A stretch of 20,831 bases of DNA from contig CAIRYF010000103.1 in the NCBI GenBank assembly GCA_903882725.1, forward strand, positions 1 to 20,831, given 5' to 3'. The notes under the pieces were generated by a model that was not told the DNA's origin, did no database searches, and was given only the letters and a program-made list of their open reading frames with translations. Shown one piece after another: positions 1,787 through 16,767 of this stretch (the first letter of the stretch is position 1; each line of letters opens with the position of its first letter). The translations under genes were made by a program, and so were the position numbers. This DNA comes from an uncultured Simplicispira sp. Its GTDB lineage: Bacteria > Pseudomonadota > Gammaproteobacteria > Burkholderiales > Burkholderiaceae_C.

Positions 1787-2581
1787 CTACTTGCGCGCAG
1801 CTGTCGCGCCATCGGACGCCACAGTAGTCACACCGCGCAAACGCAAGGCGTAGCCGCCGGTGTGGCGCAGATCGGCGAACTCCAGCGAATCTGCACGGCG
1901 CCGGTGTTGCGCCGCCACTTGCGCTAGCGTGCGCGTAAAACGCTGGGTGCGCTGCAGCACCTCTTCACTCGATCCCCCTCCCAGTTCAACCACCGCCCCA
2001 CCATCGAGCACCGCATTCCAGCCGCCGCGCCCTGAGAGCGTGAGCGACTCGATCTTCATGTCTAAAGCCGTAAATGCCGGCTGCAGCAAGGCGTACATCT
2101 GCAACACTTGGGCAGCGTAACCCTCGGGGCCATCGAGGCGCGGCAGATCATCTTCCTCGGTATCTTCACCGTTGGCTTCAAATACTTCACCCTGTTGATT
2201 CAACATGGCGTTGCCACTCTCGCCACCCCAGTGCGCCGTAGCGTGGTGCTCCTGCAACACTACGCGCAGTGTGCGTGGATATTCGCGGTGTATTTGTGCG
2301 CTGCGCACCCAAGGCACTTGCTCAAAGGCGTCGCGCGCTGCACCCAGGTTGATGGTAAAAAAATTGCCCACCAACTGCGGTGCCACATTGGCGCGCAGCG
2401 TGACGGCGTTGTTGTGTACAAGTTCACCCTGCACCACGATGCGCCCAATGGCAAAAGCCGGATGGCGCACCACCCACCATGCACCCGCTGCCAGCACCAA
2501 AAGAACGCAAGCCATGAATACCAGCGACGCGGCCAGATTCATAAACTTGACGTCCAAGGGTGCGGGCAGCCCAGGGTTCAT
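1787..2581 (-). CDS. ftsQ: Cell division protein FtsQ
   Basis: FtsQ is a bitopic inner-membrane protein that joins FtsL and FtsB in the complex controlling septal synthase activation. The 264 residues show a short cytoplasmic N-terminus ([13 protein letters not shown]), one transmembrane helix at about 14-36, and a periplasmic POTRA domain from about 43 to 112 ([10 protein letters not shown] to [10 protein letters not shown]). The beta domain that binds FtsB follows. I chose the ATG at 2579-2581 because it overlaps the ddlB stop as ATGA, like the neighbouring junctions, and yields the expected short cytoplasmic tail. An upstream in-frame ATG at 2659 would add 26 residues lying wholly inside ddlB and is unlikely. 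The length is close to the family norm. Confidence 0.95.
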
Positions 2582-3576
2582 GCAAGCGAGCCCTCCGTCC
2601 CGGCGGGGCAGGCTCCCTGTGGGGTGTCCAGCGTGGCGCTGACCAGCAGACGCAGACACAGATCTTCATAGCTGATGCCAGCGGCGCGCGCCGACATGGG
2701 CACCAGTGAATGCCCAGTCATGCCGGGCGAGGTGTTGATCTCTAACAAAAACGGCTGACGGTCGCTGGCGCGCACCATGATGTCAGCCCGCGCCCAACCC
2801 CGGCAGCCCAGCGAACGGTACGCTGCCACCACCACGCGGGCAATTTCGCGCTCCTCGGCCTCGGGCAAACCGCTGGGGCAGTGGTATTGCGTGTCGTCAG
2901 TGAAGTATTTGTTTTGGTAGTCGTAATTGCCTTGGGGCGCGACGATGCGGATCAGCGGCAGGGCCTGCGCGCTGGCACCTTCGCCCAGCACCGGGCAAGT
3001 GGTTTCGTCGCCAGCAATGAACTGTTCGCACAGCACTTCGGGGTCGTAGCGCGCGGCCAAGGCGTAGGCTTGGGCGCACTCGGCGTCGGTGTAGACCTTG
3101 GTCAGGCCGATGGTCGAGCCTTCGCGCGCGGGTTTGACGATCATCGGCGCGCCCAGTGCCAGCAGCGCGCGCTCGGTGTCAGCCGGGCTATCGACCAAGC
3201 GCCAGTCGGGTGTAGGCAAACCATCGGCGCGCCACAGGCGCTTGGTCATGATTTTGTCCATGGCAATGCTCGACGCCAGCACGCCGGAGCCGGTATAGGG
3301 AATGCCCATCAACTCCAGCGCGCCCTGCACCGTGCCGTCCTCGCCGTGGCGGCCATGCAAGGCAATAAAACAGCGCGCATACCCCTGCTGCTGCAACACA
3401 TTAAGGCTGGTGTGGGCCGGGTCAAAGGCGTGTGCATCCACACCGCGCGTGCGCAGCGCTTGCAGCACGCCGCTGCCGGACATGATTGAAACTTCGCGCT
3501 CGGCCGATGCGCCGCCCATCAGAACGGCGACCTTGCCCAACGCGGCAATGTCTATTTTTGAGTCAAATAAGGTCAT
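2578..3576 (-). CDS. ddlB: D-alanine--D-alanine ligase
   Basis: The enzyme joins two D-alanines with ATP in the cytoplasm to make the dipeptide that MurF adds to the UDP-MurNAc-tripeptide. The 332-residue protein is an ATP-grasp ligase. It has an N-terminal domain with [17 protein letters not shown] (about 14-30), [14 protein letters not shown], and [20 protein letters not shown]. The central ATP-grasp region carries [13 protein letters not shown] and the C-terminal metal-binding strand carries [15 protein letters not shown]. The Ser in EREVSIMSG and the Tyr in NYDYQNKYF sit where the family keeps its active-site residues. It overlaps murC upstream and ftsQ downstream by four bases each. That location identifies it as the dcw-linked DdlB. 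A second Ddl elsewhere cannot be excluded. Confidence 0.97.
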
Positions 3577-5006
3577 AACGCGCTCCCATCCAGCGCCAGT
3601 AGCTCGCTATTTTGTAGCAGATCTGCGATTTTTGCGGCAACTGTCCCAATGGTTCCTGCGCCCATACACAGCACGACGTCACCCGCGCGCGCATTGTCCG
3701 CTATGGTCTGTGGTAAATCTGCCACATTGGCCACAAATAGCGGCTCTACCCGACCGGCCAAGCGCAACGCGCGCGCCAGCGCCCGGCCATCGGCACCGAC
3801 GATGGGTGCCTCGCCAGCGGCGTAGACCTCGGTCAACAGCACCGCATCGGCATGGCCCAAAACCTCGATGAAATCTTCAAAACAATCGCGGGTACGGGTA
3901 TAGCGGTGCGGCTGAAACGCCAACACCAAGCGCTGGCCCGGAAAAGCACCGCGCGCCGCCGCCAGCGTGGCCGCCATCTCCACCGGATGATGGCCGTAGT
4001 CGTCGATGATGGTGAAATGGCCGCCCCCGTGCGCCGGCAAATCGCCATAGCGCTGAAAACGCCGACCCACCCCCTTGAAACTGGCCAGCGCGCGCAGCAC
4101 TGCGGCGTCGTCAATGCCCAGCTCCACCGCCACCGCCATCGCCGCCAGCGCGTTGAGCACATTGTGATCACCCGCCAAGTTCAGCACCACGTCCATATCT
4201 GGCAGGCTGACGCCATTGCGCCGCTGCACTGTAAAGTGCATTTGCCCAGCCACGGCACGCACGTTGACGGCGCGCACCTGTGCCTCGGCACTGAAGCCGT
4301 AACTGGTCACCGGGCGGGCGATTTGGTCAAGGATGTCGCGCACGGCAGCGTCGTCAATGCAGACAATGGCAGCGCCATAAAACGGCATCCGGTGCAAAAA
4401 CTCGACAAACGCCTTTTTCAAGCGGCCAAAGTCGTGGCCGTAGGTTTCCATGTGGTCGGCGTCGATGTTGGTCACCACTGCCATCACCGGCAGCAGGTTC
4501 AAGAACGAGGCGTCGGACTCGTCGGCTTCGACAATGATGTAGTCGCCTTGGCCCAGCCGCGCATTGGCACCAGCGCTGTTGAGACGCCCACCAATCACAA
4601 ACGTCGGATCCAAGTCGGCCTCGGCCAGCACGCTGGTGACTAGGCTGGTTGTCGTGGTTTTGCCGTGCGCGCCAGCAATAGCAATGCCGCGCTTAAGGCG
4701 CATCAACTCGGCCAGCATCAGTGCGCGCGGCACGACCGGGATTTTTTTCTCACGCGCGGCCAGCACTTCGGGGTTGTCGGCCCGCACTGCGGTTGAAGTA
4801 ACGACGGCATCCGCGCCAGCGATGTGCGCCGCCGCGTGGCCAACGTGGATAGCTATGCCCAACGTTTGCAGCCGACGCAGCACCGCGCTGTCGGCCAAGT
4901 CGGAACCGGTGACGGCATAGCCCAGGTTGTGCATGACTTCGGCAATGCCGCTCATGCCCGAGCCGCCAATGCCAACAAAATGGATGTGGTGGATAGCGTG
5001 CTTCAT
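3573..5006 (-). CDS. murC: UDP-N-acetylmuramate--L-alanine ligase
   Basis: MurC adds L-alanine to UDP-MurNAc with ATP, the first amino-acid step of the stem peptide. The 477 residues comprise an N-terminal UDP-binding Rossmann domain ([16 protein letters not shown], about 9-24), a central ATPase domain with the P-loop AGAHGKTTT (111-119) and [13 protein letters not shown], and a C-terminal ligase domain with DDYGHHPVE and [11 protein letters not shown]. The start is the ATG at 5004-5006, overlapping the murG stop as ATGA. An upstream ATG adding six residues inside murG is less likely. The C-terminal tail (about 463-473, [10 protein letters not shown]) is encoded by a copy of the dispersed repeat described below, so the extreme end of this MurC may be recently remodelled; the catalytic parts look intact. 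Confidence 0.97.
3588..3618 (-). repeat. Dispersed repeat copy in the 3-prime end of murC
   Basis: Read on the minus strand from 3618, this begins GCTACAAAATA, has AGC at position 15 and GGCGCT at 22. These are the same landmarks at the same spacing as the copies in murG and murE. By hand count 20 of the first 28 bases match the murG copy. It encodes [11 protein letters not shown] within the last 15 codons of MurC, in the same reading phase as the murG and murE copies. Similarity fades beyond position 28, towards the murC stop. Confidence 0.7.
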
Positions 5007-6091
5007 GCGGCCAGTGCCTCGCACGCGGCAACCACTTCGTGGGTAGCGTTGATTTTTTGCATCTTTTTGGCCTCTAGCGCCCTGTTTATAAGCGCTGTGC
5101 GCTCCATATTTTGTAGCATTTGAGCTAATCCTTGTGCTGTCATATCGCGCTGCTGTAGTAGCCAGCCGCCGCCCGCCTGCACCAAAAATTGTGCGTTGGT
5201 GGTTTGGTGGTCGTCCACCGCCGACGGAAACGGCACAAACACCGCCGCCGCGCCAACGGCAGCAATTTCAGTGACCGTGCTGGCACCGGCGCGGCAGACG
5301 ATGATGTCCGCCGCCGCAAACGCGCTGGCGGTGTCGTCAATGAAAGGGGTGAGTTCGGCCTCGACACCGGCGGCGGCGTAGTTGGCGCGCAGGGCGTCAA
5401 TTTGCGCCGCACCGCTTTGGTGCGTGACCAACGGACGCTGCTGTGCGGGAATCAGCGCCAGCGCCTGCGGCACGATGTCGTTGAGCGCGCGCGCGCCCAA
5501 ACTGCCACCAACCACCAACAGGCGCAGCGGCCCGCTGCGCCCGGCAAAGCGCTCGATGGGCCCGGGCTGCTGGGTGAAAGCGGCGCGCAGCGGATTGCCG
5601 ACCCAAGCAGCGTGCGCAAAAACGTTCGGAAAGGCAGTAAACACCCGCGACGCCACCCGCGCCAGCAGCTTGTTGGCCATGCCAGCGACAGAGTTTTGTT
5701 CGTGCAGCACCAGCGGCGTGCCCGCCAGTCGCGCCATCATGCCGCCCGGAAAGCTGATGTAGCCGCCCAAGCCGACGACCACATCGGGCTGCACCCGCCG
5801 CACCACGGCACGCGCCTGCCAAAACGCCCGCGCCAGCCGCAGCGGCAAACGCAGCAGCGTCATCACACCTTTGCCGCGCACGCCAGAAAAATCAATCGTC
5901 TCCAGCGCAAAGCCGTGCGCGGGCACGATGCGCGCCTCCATGCTGGCCGGTGCGCCCAGCCAATGCACGCGCCAGCCACGCGCGCGCAGCTCTTGGGCGA
6001 CGGCCAGTCCCGGAAAAATATGGCCGCCGGTGCCACCGGCCATGATCAGCGCGGTTTTGCCCTGGACAGGGTTGTGGGGTGCTGTTGTCAT
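5003..6091 (-). CDS. murG: Undecaprenyldiphospho-muramoylpentapeptide beta-N-acetylglucosaminyltransferase
   Basis: MurG transfers GlcNAc from UDP-GlcNAc to lipid I at the inner face of the cytoplasmic membrane, giving lipid II. The 362 residues have a GT-B fold. The glycine loop [10 protein letters not shown] is at 19-28. [12 protein letters not shown] (about 130-141) precedes the linker, a second glycine loop [12 protein letters not shown] lies at about 194-205, and the donor-site region runs from [11 protein letters not shown] to [16 protein letters not shown]. The start ATG overlaps the ftsW stop as ATGA. A longer in-frame opening up to 6397 reads through ftsW and is rejected because the G-loop would then lie far from the N-terminus. 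Residues 326-335 ([10 protein letters not shown]) and the following segment come from a full-length dispersed repeat. Confidence 0.97.
5055..5117 (-). repeat. Dispersed 63-bp repeat, full-length copy inside murG
   Basis: Read from 5117 downward, the copy has GCTACAAAATA at 1, AGC at 15, AGCGCTTAT at 22, GCGCT at 38, AGAGGCC at 43, GAT at 55 and CAAAA at 59-63. AGCGC and GCGCT form inverted arms at fwd 5076-5096. The intergenic copy at 16674-16736 has the same landmarks with no indel over 63 bases (38 of 63 identical by hand count). Here the repeat is read through as part of MurG, encoding about residues 325-346. Confidence 0.75.
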
Positions 6092-7389
6092 GCCGAACCC
6101 CCGTGGCTGCGCGCCGAGGCGGAGGTGCTGTCGCCTGCGCGCATCAGCAGTTTGTTTTCGTAGTCGATGCGAAACACCACTGCCAGCGCCACCATGTTCA
6201 TCAAAATGGCCGAGCCGCCAAAGCTCATGAGCGGCAGCGTCAAGCCCTTGGTGGGCAGCGCGCCCAAGTTCACACCGACATTGATGAAGGCCTGAAAACC
6301 CATCCAGATAGCCACGCCTTGCGCTACCAAACCGGCAAACACGCGGTCGAGCGAAATGGCTTGGCGGCCAATGTTCATGATGCGCCGCGTCATCCACAAA
6401 AACAGCAGCAGCAGGGTGAGTACGCCCATCAGGCCAAATTCTTCGCCAATCACGGCGACCATGAAGTCGGTGTGCGCCTCGGGCAGCCAGTGCAGTTTTT
6501 CAACGCTGCCGCCCAAACCAACGCCAAACACCTCACCACGGCCAATAGCGATCAGCGAATGCGTCAGCTGGTAACCCTTGGCCAAGGCATTGTTCTCGCT
6601 CCACGGGTCAAGATAAGCAAAAATGCGCGCGCGCCGGTAGTCGTTAAAGGCAATCATCAGCCCAAAGGCCGACACCAGCACCGTGCCAATCATGATGAAC
6701 ATACGGATGTTGACGCCGCCCAAAAACAAAATACCCATGGCAACCACGGCAATCACCATGAATGCGCCCATGTCTGGCTCGGCCAACAGCAGTGCCCCCA
6801 CCAAGCCCACCGCTATCCCCATCGGTAGCACGGCGCGAAAAAAATGCTCTTTGACATCCATTTTGCGGCACATATAGTCGGCGGCGTAAATCAGCACGGA
6901 AAACTTGGCCAGCTCTGATGGCTGAAAATTCATCACCCCCAGCGACAACCAGCGCCGCGCGCCGTTGACCACCGTGCCCACGTGCGGCACCAACACCAGC
7001 ATCAACAGACCGATCGACACCACAAACAGCACGCGCGCCGAACGCTCCCAAGTGGACATAGAAATCTGAAACGTCAGCAGCGCGACAACCAAGCCAATCG
7101 CCAGCGACATCGCATGGCGCACCAAAAAATGCGTTGGTGCAATCTTGCCAAAGCGCGGGTTCTGCGGCATAGCAATCGAGGCCGAATACACCATCACCAG
7201 CCCCCAGGCCAGCAGCGCCACCACCACCCACAGCAGCGTTTGGTCAAACCCCAGTACGTGTGCTGGCGTGGCCGTGGTGCGGCGATATTCCATGCCGCCC
7301 ACGCGCACCGGCAGCACATCCACCGCCTTGCTGGGCAGGCCACCAAACCAGCTACTTAGGCGTGCAAAAGCGTTGGGCCTCTTGCTCAT
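6088..7389 (-). CDS. ftsW: SEDS peptidoglycan glycosyltransferase FtsW
   Basis: FtsW polymerises lipid II into glycan strands at the septum together with FtsI. The 433 residues form a polytopic membrane protein with about ten predicted helices after a roughly 55-residue cytoplasmic N-terminus. Typical SEDS segments are visible: YSASIAMP after the first helix, [24 protein letters not shown]-region equivalents around [58 protein letters not shown], and the C-terminal [14 protein letters not shown]. The start ATG at 7387-7389 overlaps the murD stop as ATGA; earlier in-frame ATGs lie inside murD. It sits directly upstream of murG in a coupled arrangement. It is distinguished from RodA by this position and by the FtsW-type C-terminus. 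Confidence 0.97.
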
Positions 7390-9023
7390 GGCGCTCCTTC
7401 TAGCGTCTGACCGGCGTCCAGTGCCAGTGCCTGCACTGCTGCACAAAAGACCTGCGCGCGGTGCCCATAGCCGTTAAACATATCAAAACTTGCGCAAGCG
7501 GGCGACAGCAGCACTGCGTCGCCGGGGCGAGCGTGCTGCGCCGCCATGCGTACCGCTTGCGCCATATCAGAGGCGTCTAGCAGTGGCACACCGGCGTGCG
7601 CCAGCGCACTGCGGATCAGTGGTGCATCGCGGCCTATCAGCACCACCACACGGGCGTAGCGTGCTACCGGTACGGCCAGCGGGGCAAAGTCTTGCCCCTT
7701 GCCATCACCGCCCAAAATCACGGCTATGCGCCGCTCGGCACCCAGCCCAGCCAGCGCAGCCGCAGTAGCGCCGACGTTGGTGCCCTTGCTGTCATCAAAG
7801 TATTCAAGGCCATCGAGCAGGCCGATAGACTGCACGCGGTGCGGCTCGCCGCAATATTCGCGCAGGCCGTACAGCATGGGAGCCAGCGCGCACCCCGCAG
7901 CGTGTGCCAGTGCCAGCGCGGCCAGTGCGTTGGTGGCGTTGTGTCGACCCCGAATGCGCAGGGCATCTGCTGGCATCAGGCGCTGGATATGCAGCGGCTC
8001 GATCTCGATGCTGGCGCCGACTCCAGTATGGGTGCCGCGCGTGCGCCGCTGGGGCGTGTCATCTGCCGGCTGTGCGCGCACCAGCCAGGCCATGCCGTTG
8101 ACGGTTTCAATGCCAAAGTCACCAGGACGCTGGGGCAGGTCAGCGCCAAAAGTGGTGTAGCTGCGCCACTGTGATTTTTGTGATTTTTGTGATTTTTGTG
8201 ATTTTTGTGATTTTTGTGATTTTTGTGATTTGACCCGGGGAGGCTCAGGCAACATGGCCATCACCGTCGGGTCTTCGCGGTGAAGCACCAGCAGCGCCTC
8301 ATGGCCAAAAATGCGCGCTTTGGCACCCGCATAGGCAGCCAAGCTGCCGTGCCAGTCCAAATGGTCTTGCGTCACGTTGAGCACCACCCCAGCGGTGGGC
8401 TCAAAGTTATCCACCCCATCGGCAGCAGCATCAAGCTGAAAACTCGACAACTCCAGCACCCACACCGCTGGCAGCGTGCCTGCGTTCAGGTGCGTTGTCA
8501 GAGTGTCCAGCAGCGTGGGGCCGATATTGCCTGCCACGGCCACGGACTGGCCTGCACGATCGACCAGTTGGCGCGTCAGCGACGTCACCGTGGTTTTGCC
8601 ATTGGTGCCAGTGATGGCCAGCACCGCCGGTGCATAGCCTTGCGTGGTGCGCAAACTGCGCAGCGCCATAGAATATAGGCTTAATTCGCCTCCAACCCTT
8701 ATTCCATCTGCGCTTGCAGCTATTAAAACAGAAGCGATACTGGCGGGACTCAAACCGGGCGAACGGTAGATGGCATCCAACCCTTGGCCTGTTACCAGAG
8801 CAGCATCCAAGGTGCCTGCCACAAAGCGCACCTGCGCCATCTCAGCCTGCAAAGCGGCCAGCTGTGGCGGTGCCATGCGCGTGTCGGCCACCGTGACTTG
8901 CGCACCGCAGCGCACGCACCAGCGCGCCATGGCCAAGCCAGAATCGCCCAAGCCCAACACCAAAACCTTGCGGCCTTGCAAAGGAGTCATCAGGTCTTGT
9001 ACGGGGGAGAAGTCGGTGTTCAT
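7386..9023 (-). CDS. murD: UDP-N-acetylmuramoyl-L-alanine--D-glutamate ligase, with Lys-Ser-Gln repeat insert
   Basis: MurD adds D-glutamate to UDP-MurNAc-L-Ala. The 545 residues are long for the family (E. coli MurD has 438). The N-terminal Rossmann domain begins [17 protein letters not shown] (about 19-35), the P-loop is TGTNGKTTV (138-146), ELSSFQLD and [24 protein letters not shown] follow, and the C-terminal domain shows [30 protein letters not shown] and [11 protein letters not shown]. Residues 265-285 are seven consecutive KSQ triplets from a 9-bp microsatellite. They lie in the central domain between [13 protein letters not shown] and a variable stretch (about 286-350), which accounts for much of the extra length. 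The start overlaps the mraY stop as [12 protein letters not shown], 11 residues later, is an alternative start. Residues 97-107 may derive from the dispersed repeat. Confidence 0.96.
8172..8231 (-). repeat. 9-bp tandem repeat (six full units plus a part) inside murD
   Basis: On the plus strand the unit TGATTTTTG occurs six times without error from 8172 to 8225, followed by a partial TGATTT. On the coding strand each unit reads AAA TCA CAA, that is Lys-Ser-Gln, giving seven KSQ triplets, the last ending in CAG. Because the unit is nine bases, gain or loss of units keeps murD in frame. The A+T-rich composition contrasts sharply with the GC-rich flanks. Confidence 0.97.
8703..8735 (-). repeat. 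Possible diverged dispersed-repeat copy in murD
   Basis: Read from 8735 on the minus strand it has GCT at 1, AGCTGC at 15 and AAGCGC at 21, the same spacing as the murG, murE, murC and intergenic copies, but the bases between differ and the reading phase is different. The segment encodes [12 protein letters not shown] with codons TTA, ATA and AGG, which stand out in this GC-rich gene. The local AT-richness extends to about 8675. A chance match is possible. Confidence 0.35.
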
Positions 9024-10198
9024 CGTAATTTCAAGGTGGATAGACCCACCAAGCACAGCAGCATGGTGATGATCCAAAAGCGCACCACCACCTGCGTTTC
9101 TTTCCAGCCACTCTTTTCAAAGTGATGGTGCAAGGGGGCCATTTTCAAAATACGCCGACCTTCGCCGTATTTCTTTTTGGTGTATTTGAACCACATCACC
9201 TGCAACATCACCGAAATAGCTTCGACAACAAAAATGCCGCCCATGATGGCCAGCACGATTTCTTGGCGCACGATGACGGCAATCGTGCCCAGCGCCGCGC
9301 CCAGCGCCAGCGCACCGACGTCGCCCATAAACACCTGCGCCGGATGGGTGTTAAACCACAAAAAGGCCAGTCCGGCACCGGTCATGGCAGCACAAAAAAT
9401 CAGCAACTCGCCCGAACCCGGAATGTGCGGAAACAGCAAATACTTGGAGTACACCGTGCTGCCGACCACATACGCAAACACGCCCAGCGACGAGCCGACC
9501 ATCACCACCGGCATGATGGCCAAACCGTCGAGCCCGTCGGTCAGGTTGACGGCGTTGCTGGAGCCGACAATCACCAAATAGGTCAGGATGACAAAGCCCA
9601 GCACGCCCAGCGGGTAGCTGACTTCTTTAAAAAACGGCAGCAACAAACCGGCCTGCGCTGGCAAATCCACATCCAGCCCCGAACGCACCCACGAGACAAA
9701 CAGCCCTAGCACCTTGTAGTTGGAGCTCTCAGAGATGCTGAACACCAAATACAGCGCCGCCAGCAGGCCAACAATGGACTGCCACATATATTTCTCGCGC
9801 GAGCGCATTCCGTTGGGGTCTTTGTTGACCACCTTGCGCCAGTCGTCCACCCAGCCAATGGCACCAAAGCCCAGCATTACCAGCAGCACGATCCAGATAA
9901 AGCGGTTGGACAGGTCGGCCCACAGCAGGGTGGAGACCGTGATCGCCAGCAAAATCAGCACCCCGCCCATGGTGGGCGTGCCGCTTTTGACCAGATGCGT
10001 TTCCATGCCGTTGGTGCGGATAGGCTGGCCAATTTTGAGTTCTGCCAAGCGCGCAATGACGCGCGGGCCAGCGATCAGGCCAATCAGCAGCGCCGTCAGC
10101 GCCGCCAGCACGGCGCGCAGCGTCAGGTACTGAAAGACACGAAAAAAACCAAAATCGCTGGAGACGCTTTGCAGCCACTGCGCCAACCACATCAGCAT
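9020..10198 (-). CDS. mraY: Phospho-N-acetylmuramoyl-pentapeptide transferase
   Basis: MraY moves phospho-MurNAc-pentapeptide from UDP to undecaprenyl phosphate in the inner membrane, forming lipid I. The 392 residues give a ten-helix integral membrane protein. Family motifs in order are SGTPTMGG (72-79), the aspartate-rich GWVDDWRK (115-122), [13 protein letters not shown] (215-227), [16 protein letters not shown] (285-300) and the cytoplasmic loop MAPLHHHFE (353-361), which includes the conserved histidine triplet. The 392-residue length, with an extra segment after WVDDWRK, is what I expect in betaproteobacteria. The start ATG at 10196-10198 overlaps the murF stop by seven bases (ATGCTGA). 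A second ATG two codons in is possible. The gene overlaps murD downstream by four bases. Confidence 0.97.
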
Positions 10199-11610: not shown

Positions 11611-13098
11611 TCAAATACTTTCTCGGGCTTGCAGCGCCGCACGCGCTTGGGCCATGTCTGAGAACGGCCGGCGCACGCCCGCCGTCTCTTGGTAATCTTC
11701 GTGTCCTTTGCCAGCAATCAACACCACGTCGCGGGCGTCGGCCTCGGTCAGCGCCAGCGCAATCGCTCTAGCGCGGTCCACTTCGACGCGCACGGTTTGG
11801 CCGGCAATCGTGCCTTGCAGCACTTGGTGCAGGATGTGCGCCGGGTCTTCGCTGCGCGGGTTGTCGCTGGTCAGCACCACCCAGTCCGCATGGTGCTGCG
11901 CGGCAGCGCCCATTAACGGGCGTTTGCTGGCGTCGCGGTCGCCGCCGCAACCAAACACACACCACAGCTGGCCGCCACGCTCTTGCGCCAGCGGGCGCAA
12001 GGCGCGCAGCACTTGTTGCAGCGCGTCCGGCGTGTGCGCGTAGTCCACCGCCACCAGCGGCTGACCCGCTAGCACAATGCGCTCCATGCGCCCCGGCACC
12101 GGCAACAGACTGGCGCAGGCCGATACCGCGCGTGCCAGCGGCACGCCCAGCGCACGCAAAGCGGCAATCACCCCGAGCAGGTTGGAGACGTTGTAGTCGC
12201 CGATCAGCGCAGTTTGCAGCGCATGGCGCTCGCCGCCTTCGACCACCGTAAAGCGCAGTCCCGTGTCGCCAAAGCCTATATCTTGTGCTTGCAGCCGCGC
12301 GCTGCGGTGCATCGACACGCTCCACACCTCCAAGCTGCGCGCTGCCAGTGCCGCGTGCAGCGCAGCGCCGTGGGCATCGTCGATGTTGATCACTGCCGCT
12401 TGCAAACCCGGCCAGTCAAACAGCGCCACTTTGGACTGCCAATAGGCGTCCATGTTGCCGTGGTAGTCAAGGTGGTCTTGCGTGAAGTTAGTAAACACGC
12501 CCACGCGAATGCGTGTGCCCGCCAGCCGGTGCTCGGCCAAGCCAATCGACGAAGCTTCGATGGCGCAGCTGCGCACGCCAGCATCCACAAACTGGCGAAA
12601 TGCGCGCTGCAAGCGCACTGGGTCGGGCGTGGTCATGCCGGTGTTTTCGAGCTGCGGAGGCACTCCCATGCCCAAAGTGCCCACTAGCCCGCATGGAATA
12701 AGCGCTTTCAGCTCACATTTTTGTAGCGCATCAGCCAGCCACCAAGCGCTGCTGGTTTTGCCATTGGTGCCGGTAAAGGCCACCACATGGAGTGACTGCG
12801 AAGGCTGGCCAAACCACTGCGCGGCAATGTCGCCGGTAGCGGCTTTCAAATCGGTCAGCGCGGCCATGGGCGCACCAGCAAAGTCAAACGCCTCGACACC
12901 AACTTGCTCCACCAAGCAGGCGCTGGCACCGCGTGCGGTGGCGCTGGCAACATGGGCGCGGCCATCGGTGGCGGCACCCGGCCAGGCAATAAAGCCGTCA
13001 CCCGGGGCAATCAGGCGGCTGTCGGTGTGCAGCGTGCCGGTGACGCGCTGGCGCAGCCACTGCACCGCCGCGCGGGCGTTATCCAACAACGGGGGCAT
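11611..13098 (-). CDS. murE: UDP-N-acetylmuramoyl-L-alanyl-D-glutamate--2,6-diaminopimelate ligase
   Basis: MurE adds meso-diaminopimelate to UDP-MurNAc-L-Ala-D-Glu. The 495 residues contain HTDSRLIAPGDGFIAWPGAATDGR in the UDP-binding domain (about 24-47), the P-loop TGTNGKTS (109-116), TTPDPVRLQ, EASSIGLAEHRL and FTNFTQDHLDYHG. The C-terminal domain has VDYAHTPDAL, GCGGDRDASKRPLMG and DNPR (412-415); DNPR marks the diaminopimelate-specific rather than lysine-specific enzymes, so the cell wall is of the usual Gram-negative type. It abuts ftsI (TAA then ATG) with GAGGAG as ribosome binding site. Residues 125-134 (LQKCELKALI), just after the P-loop helix, are encoded by a dispersed repeat copy in a place where family members vary. 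Confidence 0.97.
   Translation of the reverse strand: MPPLLDNARAAVQWLRQRVTGTLHTDSRLIAPGDGFIAWPGAATDGRAHVASATARGASACLVEQVGVEAFDFAGAPMAALTDLKAATGDIAAQWFGQPSQSLHVVAFTGTNGKTSSAWWLADALQKCELKALIPCGLVGTLGMGVPPQLENTGMTTPDPVRLQRAFRQFVDAGVRSCAIEASSIGLAEHRLAGTRIRVGVFTNFTQDHLDYHGNMDAYWQSKVALFDWPGLQAAVINIDDAHGAALHAALAARSLEVWSVSMHRSARLQAQDIGFGDTGLRFTVVEGGERHALQTALIGDYNVSNLLGVIAALRALGVPLARAVSACASLLPVPGRMERIVLAGQPLVAVDYAHTPDALQQVLRALRPLAQERGGQLWCVFGCGGDRDASKRPLMGAAAQHHADWVVLTSDNPRSEDPAHILHQVLQGTIAGQTVRVEVDRARAIALALTEADARDVVLIAGKGHEDYQETAGVRRPFSDMAQARAALQARESI
12695..12727 (-). repeat. Dispersed repeat copy inside murE
   Basis: Read from 12727 on the minus strand it starts GCTACAAAA, has AGC at 15 and AGCGCTTAT at 22. 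By hand count 23 of 33 bases match the murG copy with no gap. It encodes ALQKCELKALI in the same reading phase as the murG and murC copies. A weaker match (GGGCT at 38, AGTGGGC at 43) may extend it to full length, but that part also encodes the conserved GLVGTLG of MurE, so it may be coincidence. Confidence 0.7.
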
Positions 13099-15183: not shown

Positions 15184-16113
15184 TCATGCAGGCACCTGTG
15201 TGCGCTCGGCCACGCGCATCACAGCGCTGCGCGAACGCGGATTGACTGCTACTTCGGCGGCGCTGGGTTTGATGCGCGCCAGCGCCTTCAGGCGCATCGG
15301 CTGGGGCAGCGCAAACGGCGCGCGCCGGTCGTAGACCTCTTTGGAGTGCTCGGCAATGAACTGCTTGACGATGCGGTCTTCAAGCGAATGAAAGCTAATC
15401 ACCACCAAACGCCCGCCCGGTTGCAACACCGACAGGCTGGCCGCTAGTGCTTGTTGCAGTTCTTGCAACTCGGCATTGATGAAAATCCGAAAAGCCTGAA
15501 AGGTGCGTGTGGCCGGATTTTGGCCTGCCTCGCGGGTCTTGACCGTGCCAGCCACGAGGTCGGCCAACTCGGCGGTAGTAGCAAGCGGGCCACGCTCTTG
15601 TCGGCGAGCAACAATCGCCTTTGCAATGGGGCCAGCAAACCGTTCTTCACCATATTCACGTATTACCTCTGCAATCTGTCCAACCTCAGCGCTTGCCAGC
15701 CACTGCGCCACGCTTTCGCCGCGCGTGGTGTCCATGCGCATATCCAGCGGGCCATCAAAGCGAAAACTAAAGCCGCGCTCAGGACTGTCAATTTGGGGGG
15801 AACTCACACCCAAATCCATCAACACCCCGCAGGCGCTGGCGGGCTCTAGGTCGGCCAAGTGGCGAAAGCCCTCGTGGCGAATTGAAAAACGCGCGTCCTC
15901 GATAAGCGCTGCGGCGCTGACAGCTTCGGGGTCTTTGTCAAATGCCAACAACTGCCCTTGTGGGCCTAAGCGCGCAAGAATGTGGCGCGAGTGGCCGCCT
16001 CGGCCAAAGGTGGCGTCAATCCAAGTGCCTTGCGCCAGCGCTTGGGCACCAGCTAGCAAAGCCTCAACAGCTTCGTTGAGCAGCACAGTGGTGTGTGGTC
16101 GAGGTTCGGTCAT
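15184..16113 (-). CDS. rsmH: 16S rRNA (cytosine(1402)-N(4))-methyltransferase RsmH
   Basis: RsmH (formerly MraW) methylates N4 of C1402 in 16S rRNA using S-adenosylmethionine and is normally the second gene of dcw clusters. The 309 residues show [14 protein letters not shown] (7-20), the SAM-binding glycine motif [14 protein letters not shown] (33-46), AFDKDPEAV, the motif [14 protein letters not shown] and the C-terminal [16 protein letters not shown] segment, followed by RRAPFALP and [11 protein letters not shown]. The length is typical. The start ATG at 16111-16113 forms an ATGA overlap with the stop of the mraZ remnant and has AAAGG about eight bases upstream. With mraZ gone, rsmH is the first intact gene of the cluster. 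Confidence 0.97.
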
Positions 16114-16310
16114 GCGGTGCCTTTAGAAAGCAAAGGCAGTGGGGCAATGCGTTCGCAAAATTTTTCCCATTCGGGACGGGGAAAAACCATAAGGCATCCG
16201 TGGGTGTTTGGTAGGGGGCATTTGGCCTGAAACACAGACAGATGCCTCGCCCTTGGTTTTGACTGATTTAAGCGGAAAGAAGCACAACGAAGCACAACCA
16301 AGGGGCTATT
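16110..16310 (-). pseudogene. mraZ: Decayed mraZ (transcriptional regulator MraZ) fragment
   Basis: MraZ is normally a protein of about 140-150 residues with two SpoVT/AbrB-like domains that binds DNA repeats upstream of its own gene and is the first gene of the dcw cluster. Here, translating the minus strand from about 16203, the peptide HGCLMVFPRPEWEKFCERIAPLPL matches the characteristic middle of the MraZ N-terminal domain as I know it. The preceding piece, KTKGEASVCVSGQMPPTKHP (16260-16201), is in another frame and matches the earlier part (family pattern DAKGRLSV, SGQ, TKHP). The frame breaks at about 16198-16206, where the family would read TKHPHGCL. Upstream of KTKGEASV similarity fades and a stop lies near 16308. 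After APLPL only LSKGTA remains before the TGA, so the second AbrB domain and C-terminus are absent. No intact product can be made. Confidence 0.8.
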
Positions 16311-16320
16311 TTCCCACTTT
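16279..16320 (-). promoter_or_regulatory. Possible decayed MraZ operator with 10-bp tandem
   Basis: On the minus strand the segment starts AAAGTGGGAAAA at 16320. On the plus strand GAAGCACAAC is perfectly repeated at 16279-16288 and 16289-16298. MraZ operators known elsewhere are direct repeats of short TGGG- or AAAGTG-type boxes with about ten-base periodicity. One good box remains here; the tandem is not a clear box and may overlap the eroded mraZ start. I could not place a convincing dcw promoter near it. Confidence 0.25.
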
Positions 16321-16504
16321 ATGGCAATTTCCCGCACTGTATCAGGAAATGAATCCAAACTGCCTGCTAAAGAAGCCGCTTATCTCAACAAAATCAAGGG
16401 CTTAGAACCTGAATTGTAGGCGCACAATAACAAATATCTCTACGCAGAAAGGCAGTTAGCGCGTGCGATGAGAAACGCTTTGTCCCTGCAAAATATTCGG
16501 GTAA
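16311..16504. other. Gene-free, AT-richer stretch with interrupted peptide fragments
   Basis: Nothing intact is visible. In one plus frame from 16321 the sequence reads MAISRTVSGNESKLPAKEAAY and continues LNKIKGLEPEL to a TAG at 16417-16419. It then carries on in the same frame as AHNNKYLYAERQLARAMRNA to another TAG near 16510. The charged, helix-like composition suggests the remains of a coding sequence, but I recognise no family and there is no ribosome binding site. The base composition is less GC-rich than the genes on either side, which could mean foreign or long-unselected DNA. Confidence 0.35.
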
Positions 16505-16680
16505 TCCCGTAGTGCGGGTCTGCCAATCACGCCTTGGATCGCCAAGTTCGGCACTCAAAAGGCCGCATCCAAGCACCCGCGCGCCGGTGCCGTGTGGGCG
16601 GGCGAATACAACAGCGTCTGGCTGGCGGCCACCGGGCTGTTCTCGCGCCCCAGCCACTGCACTGACAGCTATAGCTATTG
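16505..16680 (+). pseudogene. Open tail of an unidentified gene without a start
   Basis: A plus-strand frame is open from just after a TAA at about 16502-16504 to a TGA at 16678-16680. It reads GLPITPWIAKFGTQKAASKH, then PRAGAVWAGEYNSVWLAATG, then LFSRPSHCTD. The GC-rich third positions and regular amino-acid use look like genuine coding sequence, and the final SYSY plus stop fall inside the dispersed repeat copy, as if the repeat had truncated or capped the gene. No start codon with a ribosome binding site is visible. I do not recognise the family. A competing minus-strand opening over the same bases has less natural composition. It could also be a chance frame. Confidence 0.3.
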
Positions 16681-16736
16681 AAATAATAGCTAATAGCGCT
16701 TGACTACATTGCCTCAGAGGCCTATTTGATTCAAAA
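16674..16736 (+). repeat. Dispersed 63-bp repeat, intergenic full-length copy
   Basis: The copy starts GCTATTGAAATAATAGC, with AGCGCTT at position 22, GCCTC at 38, AGAGGCC at 43, GAT at 55 and CAAAA at 59-63. All landmarks share register with the murG copy. It contains inverted repeats CTATT/AATAG (16675-16689) and GCCTC-A-GAGGC (16711-16721). It overlaps the likely promoter of the ABC operon and the stop of the orphan frame upstream. Confidence 0.75.
16700..16728 (+). promoter_or_regulatory. Probable sigma-70 promoter of the ABC importer operon
   Basis: TTGACT (16700-16705) and TATTTG (16723-16728) are separated by 17 bases, giving a good -35 and a mediocre -10 about 40 bases before the ATPase start. 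Both boxes lie within the dispersed repeat. The spacer contains the perfect palindrome GCCTC-A-GAGGC, which could be an operator or just part of the repeat. Confidence 0.45.
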
Positions 16737-16767
16737 GGTAACCGCAAACTGAGAGACAATCGCGGCC

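Follow-up and report, generated by a model that had tools for sequence, protein, structure and literature searches.

A dispersed 63-bp motif between and within genes of Simplicispira and related genera, including murG

Motif copies in the window and in the family

The DNA studied here, referred to as the window, is a stretch of 20,831 nucleotides from an uncultured Simplicispira sp. (assembly GCA_903882725.1, contig CAIRYF010000103.1, positions 1 to 20,831 of the forward strand). The genome to which it belongs (G000) comprises 2.02 Mb in 481 contigs and is 67.5% complete. Using our own gene calls and a profile of a 63-bp motif (model R1), the following genes and motif copies were identified:

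2578..3576, minus strand: ddl, D-alanine--D-alanine ligase (own gene call; NF002378, 412.3 bits, cut-off 243); its start lies inside the copy at the murC end
3556..3618, minus strand: degenerate motif copy spanning the murC 3' end and the ddl start (20.8 bits under R1)
3573..5006, minus strand: murC (own gene call; TIGR01082, 543.3 bits, cut-off 335)
5003..6091, minus strand: murG (own gene call; TIGR01133, 332.6 bits, cut-off 250)
5055..5117, minus strand: motif copy in murG, residues 325-346 (38.1 bits under R1, E 6e-8 in the window; codon phase 2; in place, length unchanged)
7386..9056, minus strand: murD (own gene call; TIGR01087, 337.6 bits, cut-off 212)
8673..8735, minus strand: motif copy in murD (41.7 bits under R1; codon phase 0; in place)
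11611..13086, minus strand: murE (own gene call; TIGR01085, 455.9 bits, cut-off 257)
12665..12727, minus strand: motif copy in murE, in a loop of variable length (29.3 bits under R1; codon phase 2)
16674..16736, plus strand: intergenic motif copy, near consensus (65.8 bits under R1, but a member of the training set)

A sequence-only reading of the window had claimed that the murG copy, read on the minus strand from 5117, matches 16674-16736 without gaps at 38 of 63 positions, and we obtained the same count; the residue range that it gave, 325-346, is correct for the 362-aa MurG of our gene call. With 16674-16736 as query against the window (both strands, ungapped) the top non-self matches were those read from 5117 and from 3618 on the minus strand, with 38 identities each, the next one having 31, and BLAST of 16660-16750 against G000 gave 20 places at E ≤ 10, self counted. 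R1 was built from 18 aligned copies, i.e. 17 from other contigs and the copy at 16674, with the murG copy excluded, and the search of the window with this model gave the five copies above in total. The copy at the murC end encodes the C-terminal tail of MurC.

Two further features of the window are as follows. The murD gene holds a 9-bp tandem array, TGTGATTTT, of about seven units in whole codons (8161-8241). Moreover, alignment of positions 16100-16760 to the close relative G014 ends near 16570, and the continuation seen in the relatives G013, G005 and G010 sits on another contig of the same genome (L061), which places the 16674 copy near a rearrangement.

The same reading had mentioned short palindromic repeats between genes of Comamonadaceae. 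Our data support a dispersed repeat family in Comamonadaceae-type genomes, and the motif given in the consulted part of an earlier report (PMC5217627), which fits the core of this family, bears out such repeats. Specifically, G000 carries at least 150 copies (training copies counted): the profile search gave 932 first-look candidates, of which the best 150 were scored, all at E ≤ 1.6e-4. The density is approximately one copy per 7 kb in the stretches sampled (109 copies of ≥ 10 bits in 741 kb), and at E ≤ 1 the number of matches in 400 kb of the complete same-genus genome G009 was 63, including a small number where one place was matched on both strands. The matches have a GC content of 30-54%. 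We also surveyed 80 genomes of the family, a single one for each genus and the own included, with stricter filters and the best 66 candidates scored per genome, so that weak copies may have escaped. At E ≤ 0.01, matches are present in 33 of these genomes and absent from 47; ten or more occur in 25 (including 10 with at least 66) and 1 to 7 in the other 8. Matches were also found in 8 of 13 further genomes. The exact core pattern is present in at least 118 stretches among the matches listed, and the named records with it include Acidovorax, Simplicispira, Giesbergeria, Paenacidovorax, Polaromonas, Rhodoferax, Extensimonas, Comamonas and Ottowia.

The 27 coding and the 61 intergenic copies of ≥ 12 bits have a common consensus, roughly GCTATTAAAATAATAGCTGCTAGCGCTT.......AAGCGCTAGAGGCCAATTT, with an uncorrected information of 56.0 and 55.4 bits, respectively, a likeness that is partly by construction since both sets were picked by one model. 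The motif is sharply bounded, with information near zero a few bases beyond the 63 bp, and its core is palindromic (an inverted repeat; see e.g. the copy at L089:4255-4317, AGCGCTTATCTCATAAGCG).

Copies within genes: frequency, length and codon usage

The sample of 741 kb was drawn from G009, G006 and the window and has 641 gene calls from our own simple caller (89% coding). In it, 57 of the 109 copies of ≥ 10 bits are intergenic, 20 lie across gene edges and 32 within genes, the latter (approximately 30%) on both strands and in several phases. Enrichment over a shuffled control, the absence of which the sequence-only reading would have taken as refuting, was evident: genes scored alone gave 35 hits of ≥ 10 bits vs 1.0 on average and at most 3 in ten synonymous-codon shuffles, and at 15 bits there were 26 coding hits vs a shuffle mean of 0.2. 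Genes with a copy in the own genome are murG, murD, murE, the murC end and pgi (58.7 bits), while those in G009 or G006 include dapF, cobS, the type I restriction gene hsdR, the genes for an MBL-fold protein, a penicillin-binding protein and an acyl-CoA dehydrogenase, comEC, an rlmI-like gene (for which the best model stays under its cut-off) and others. The in-frame read-through of the repeat suggested for MurG is confirmed and applies likewise to other proteins. The comEC gene, which encodes a DNA-internalisation function, has its coding copy at L076:7006-7068, and the copy in the hsdR gene is antisense (L323:4760-4811).

MurG was found in 24 of 26 same-genus genomes (own included), and together with 49 sequences from other genera these gave 73 rows, all of which are gap-free over the motif codons, with or without the motif. 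Distant rows read e.g. LADLLAGLTREALLAMATKARALSRP with GC-rich codons and repeat-bearing rows e.g. MLQNTERTALVDKALKAKNMQK with CTA CAA AAT and similar codons. A recent insertion into murG is thereby ruled out. The proposal that a small mobile element had entered murG was not borne out either, family-free relatives having the same number of residues at 325-346. According to the earlier reading the proposal would fall if MurG of repeat-free relatives had the same residues there; the number is the same and the residues are partly so (e.g. MILNMQRPALLEKALKAKAMEK in G041, which has 0 matches), by which the proposal falls as far as an insertion is concerned. The murG copy is old, its likeness being common to the genus. 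The change in murG was in place and possibly came about by copying over existing sequence or by base-by-base drift to the motif.

To extend the comparison, three outgroups with 0 matches each (G041, G064 and G126) were used; an orthologue covering the site was available for 13 of 35 coding hits (9 distinct genes, with L313_4226 being a doubtful gene call). The motif residues show no indel relative to at least one outgroup in MurG, MurD (gap-free vs G041, G064 and G126), the RlmI-like protein, the MBL-fold protein and the L318 protein. The RlmI-like site already resembles the motif translation in an outgroup (AAFFEAAIARAIRARSLFEIQ in G064 vs APFFIAACARAISARGRFDIQ). Other sites do differ in length. 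DapF and MurE differ from the outgroups by up to 4 residues at the motif, and around the copy two solved DapF structures have 10-11 residues fewer. The MurE loop of the own genome exceeds that of 5 of 7 repeat-free orthologues by 4 residues, has about the length of the G064 loop and falls short of the G041 loop by 4; as we read the alignment, the MurE motif lies in two registers across genera. Of the 7 repeat-free MurC orthologues, 6 have a shorter tail and the one from G041 has a tail as long as here, and the Wzy-type protein has about 14 residues more than G041 at its copy, which is insert-like.

The codons of murG in repeat-bearing genomes match the motif beyond the need of the protein. The motif score (PSSM) of murG in the own genome is 46.5 vs 10.5±6.7 for a synonymous null (z 5.4; 0 of 2000 as high). 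In same-genus loci (19-21 rows per gene), where a codon was taken as rare if it makes up ≤ 13% of its family, a rare codon is kept in 10 or more rows in 16 of the 1906 codon columns of murC, murD, murE and murG, and 11 of these 16 fall inside the motif copies (80 codons), as do all 5 CTA/TTA columns. The synonymous identity of the motif windows gives a weaker result than the rare codons: it is moderately high, with rank 12 of 345 in murG and 16 of 472 in murC, and 72 of 533 in murD and 99 of 486 in murE.

Presence of the motif in murG is associated with presence of the family. Taking genomes with ten or more matches as family-bearing and those with two or fewer as family-free (one row with 4 was set aside), and a score > 10 with < 1% of the null versions as high as a motif call, MurG carries the motif in 18 of the 29 family-bearing genomes and in none of the 21 family-free ones, counts that ignore kinship; by this cut-off 11 of the 29 family-bearing genomes are without it. 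With own-genus rows removed and the score alone used, the contrast persists at all cut-offs from 0 to 30 (Fisher p 1e-6 to 1e-3), with 1 of 21 family-free MurG passing at cut-offs 0 and 5. A kinship test over the starred branches left four independent pairs, in which on average 2.9 had the same direction, 0 the opposite direction and 1.1 no difference; the sign test on these was not significant, the pairs being too few. In one pair (support 99), L251 with 58 copies and L258 with none, the MurG scores are 20.5 and 7.2, respectively, the latter not above the null. In loci from 20 other genera, the best murE score exceeds 0 in 9 of 13 family-bearing vs 0 of 7 family-free loci and that of murD in 8 of 13 vs 0 of 7, where three murD rows (one bearing, two free) miss the site; murC was left out of this scoring as its copy extends beyond the gene.

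Chance or the demands of the protein might produce such a likeness in murG, and the MurG residues are in fact partly conserved in repeat-free relatives. We nevertheless reject this explanation, the probability of which we judge to be negligible: real genes with shuffled codons give almost no hits, the murG score stands far above the synonymous null, and the motif is missing from MurG of all family-free genomes. Taken together, the lack of gaps in MurG, the kept rare codons and the association with the family argue for a DNA-level motif held in place rather than a recent mobile insert, and in essential genes such as murG the motif seems to owe its upkeep to the DNA, not to the protein.

Genomic positions and candidate origins

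Several positions of the motif are old and shared. A spacer copy is present at the L061 site in the own genome, G013, G005 and G010 (the neighbouring genes look like hslV and hslU), and the four mur sites are common across the genus. The 59 intergenic copies are distributed over 18 convergent, 37 tandem and 4 divergent gaps, for which 10.3, 42.9 and 19.9 kb, respectively, are available; the copies hence favour convergent over divergent gaps.

These data bear on whether the motif is a functional chromosomal site under ordinary selection, e.g. for a nucleoid or chromosome-organising protein, a terminator or an RNA-processing signal, with no part played by biased uptake. Shared positions throughout the genus, the richness of convergent gaps and the palindromic core are in keeping with such a site, but the share of copies within genes, where they occupy either strand and various phases, is not, nor is the patchy distribution (any match in 33 of 80 genera and ten or more in 25, based on the best 66 candidates per genome); on balance we find it doubtful. 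Two specific candidates were rejected. Along G009, no replication polarity was apparent by eye in the 62 copies listed of 150 matches, which speaks against a polar site of the KOPS or Chi type. A structured RNA or hairpin element was likewise discarded, as the Watson-Crick pairs in the stems are at or near independence (13 pairs, 61 intergenic copies) and Rfam gave 0 hits at gathering scores within the window.

An old mobile palindromic element (REP/RAYT-, MITE- or RPE-like), with the coding copies as old inserts or remnants, would account for the sharp boundaries, the inverted-repeat core and the extra residues of the Wzy-type protein. It would also fit the RAYT-like genes: in 3 of 11 loci (G014, G005 and G002) the gene end with the stop codon overlaps a copy, and in G005 a second copy lies 59 bp before its start. 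The copies in these three genomes are:

L357:1682-1737: copy at a RAYT-like gene
L359:4467-4518 and 5274-5325: copies at a RAYT-like gene
L360:3910-3966: copy at a RAYT-like gene

A past link between the motif and the RAYT-like gene is therefore possible. Yet no copy was found at the gene in the other 8 of 11 loci examined, and the gene is present in 78 of 80 genomes (E ≤ 1e-20), i.e. regardless of the family, which occurs in 33. Syntenic spacers between G009 and G006, a small comparison, point both ways. In each direction 3 copies are shared and 1 is absent; one spacer is 50 bp longer with the copy (89 vs 39 bp), as expected for a mobile element, while for one absent copy the gap is nearly unchanged (266 vs 270 bp). 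Among the coding copies for which an orthologue exists, 2 are shared and 3 fall to < 12 bits in one direction, and 2 are shared and 1 falls to < 12 bits in the reverse direction (left out were 11 and 7 non-syntenic spacers, 4 and 4 coding copies lacking an orthologue and 1 contig end). Further points against a mobile element are the MurG, MurD, RlmI-like and MBL copies without change of length, stop codons in the consensus in the two frames mostly used (same strand, by eye), rare codons kept genus-wide, stem pairs no more complementary than independence predicts, and the old positions shared across relatives such as the L061 spacer site. Overall, we consider a mobile origin unlikely.

The in-place coding copies could also result from templated overwriting, in which the repeat, as single-stranded copies, would anneal wherever the sequence is partly similar and replace it, with later copies re-converting old ones. 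The mechanism would be of a kind with gene conversion or short-patch illegitimate recombination. Both the target of the RlmI-like gene, which is motif-like already in G064, and the MurE motif in two registers in different genera agree with this. However, the few close comparisons revealed no such event, and none of the papers listed under the name of the mechanism was relevant; this explanation therefore appears quite improbable to us.

Comparison with known systems and a possible uptake signal

The closest motif described is GCTTAT(N)5AAGCG of Acidovorax ebreus TPSY, present in 114 copies, 107 of which are intergenic and 5 in genes, and for which the consulted part of the report proposes no function (PMC5217627). 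By description of the A. ebreus sequence, this pair fits the core of the copies here, e.g. L089:4255-4317, and the gene orientations around the motif (convergent/divergent/co-oriented) are 44/4/59 in A. ebreus and 18/4/37 here (A. ebreus values from the same part of PMC5217627). That part gives a 16-bp core only, compared with 63 bp here, and analyses neither in-frame copies nor relatives (PMC5217627). It also lists a motif in Polaromonas naphthalenivorans, ATAGCT(N)22CAAAAG, with 18 of 125 copies in genes (PMC5217627), which may be a relative of the present family. The core strings of our motif had no match in the literature searched, and our searches, covering the reports in part, revealed no earlier account of the whole motif, of its copies in coding sequence or of their upkeep.

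Rickettsia palindromic elements (RPE) are short palindromic repeats, in some cases read through inside genes, where they lengthen the protein. The murG and murD copies, compared by description, differ from these in having no gain of length. RPE are mentioned in passages of PMC3733652, together with the REP elements that go with RAYT transposases, which are abundant, small and palindromic, some of them in genes. The motif may resemble the latter in lying at the end of 3 of 11 RAYT-like genes, but its copies are longer, the RAYT-like gene is present regardless of the family, and the GTAG tag was not noticed (REP traits as in those passages of PMC3733652); that the consensus ends are neither GTAG nor CGTC was noted in passing. 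The Beta-proteobacterial repeat element BRE is dispersed in Bordetella and some Comamonadaceae with some copies in genes, and in Bordetella is 75-91 bp long and 69% GC on average, with some loci in tandem, according to the part of PMC3110155 consulted. Its high GC content (69% vs 30-54% here) sets it apart from the motif by description (PMC3110155, same part).

The uptake sequences of Neisseria (DUS) and Pasteurellaceae (USS) are 10-12 bp long, number hundreds of copies or more and are present within genes as well as between them (PMC2346458, as far as the text consulted extends). The motif is alike in its hundreds of copies or more and its over-representation in both coding and noncoding DNA (PMC2346458, same text); no general orientation bias is reported there for DUS/USS, and none was seen for the motif (PMC2346458). 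Length-neutral coding copies of the DUS/USS type are represented here by MurG, MurD, the RlmI-like protein, MBL and L318, but not by DapF, MurE, the MurC tail and the Wzy-type protein. The motif departs from DUS/USS in length, with conservation over 63 bp instead of 10-12.

Since its traits together come closest to those of DNA uptake sequences, as described in the consulted text of PMC2346458, we rank biased uptake with recombination first and tentatively suggest that the motif marks self-DNA for recognition in natural transformation, a signal to which coding sites would be drawn by biased uptake. The 63-bp motif, at fixed places between and within genes, would then be maintained by a process acting on DNA through a putative trans-acting recogniser. 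Alleles nearer to the motif would be taken up and recombined more often, and allelic replacement would pull tolerant coding sites to the motif at unchanged length, a molecular drive comparable to that of Neisseria DUS and Pasteurellaceae USS. Where the recogniser is lost, the coding copies would drift back to ordinary codons. Several data stand against this reading: 63 bp is far over 10-12 bp (PMC2346458, in the portion seen) and difficult to assemble through point mutations only; lengths differ at the motif in DapF, MurE, the MurC tail and the Wzy-type protein; one spacer is 50 bp longer with the copy, and a copy lies at the RAYT-like end in 3 of 11 genomes; 11 of 29 family-bearing MurG are without the motif, and the identity of the synonymous windows is only moderately high. 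In view of the length differences in some genes and the copies at RAYT-like gene ends, the other readings were retained. No report on an uptake sequence in Comamonadaceae was found in the literature searched.

Interspersed repeats of bacteria are commonly regarded as debris that lies between genes and is often mobile. The present family differs in that a 63-bp sequence seems to be held at the DNA level in essential genes, across a genus and in several further genera, and whether one gene bears it is associated with whether the genome at large does. Two questions thereby become testable, namely which factor recognises the motif and to what extent a signal in DNA can determine the sequence of a protein. 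If the motif is an uptake signal, self-DNA recognition would extend beyond Neisseriaceae and Pasteurellaceae to a large environmental family. In its widest form, which we put forward as speculation that is rather unlikely to hold in full, many genera would carry a 63-bp uptake or recombination signal for self-DNA, much longer than the known ones, that by molecular drive reshapes MurG, MurD, Pgi and even ComEC in place and is erased from the same codons once its recogniser is lost.

Finally, the exact core pattern is also present in 4 stretches of the IMG/VR collection. Reading frames beside the motif in two of these resemble Rha-type genes. Two IMG/VR contigs, L095 and L096, have similar sequence around a motif copy, possibly representing a shared prophage site.
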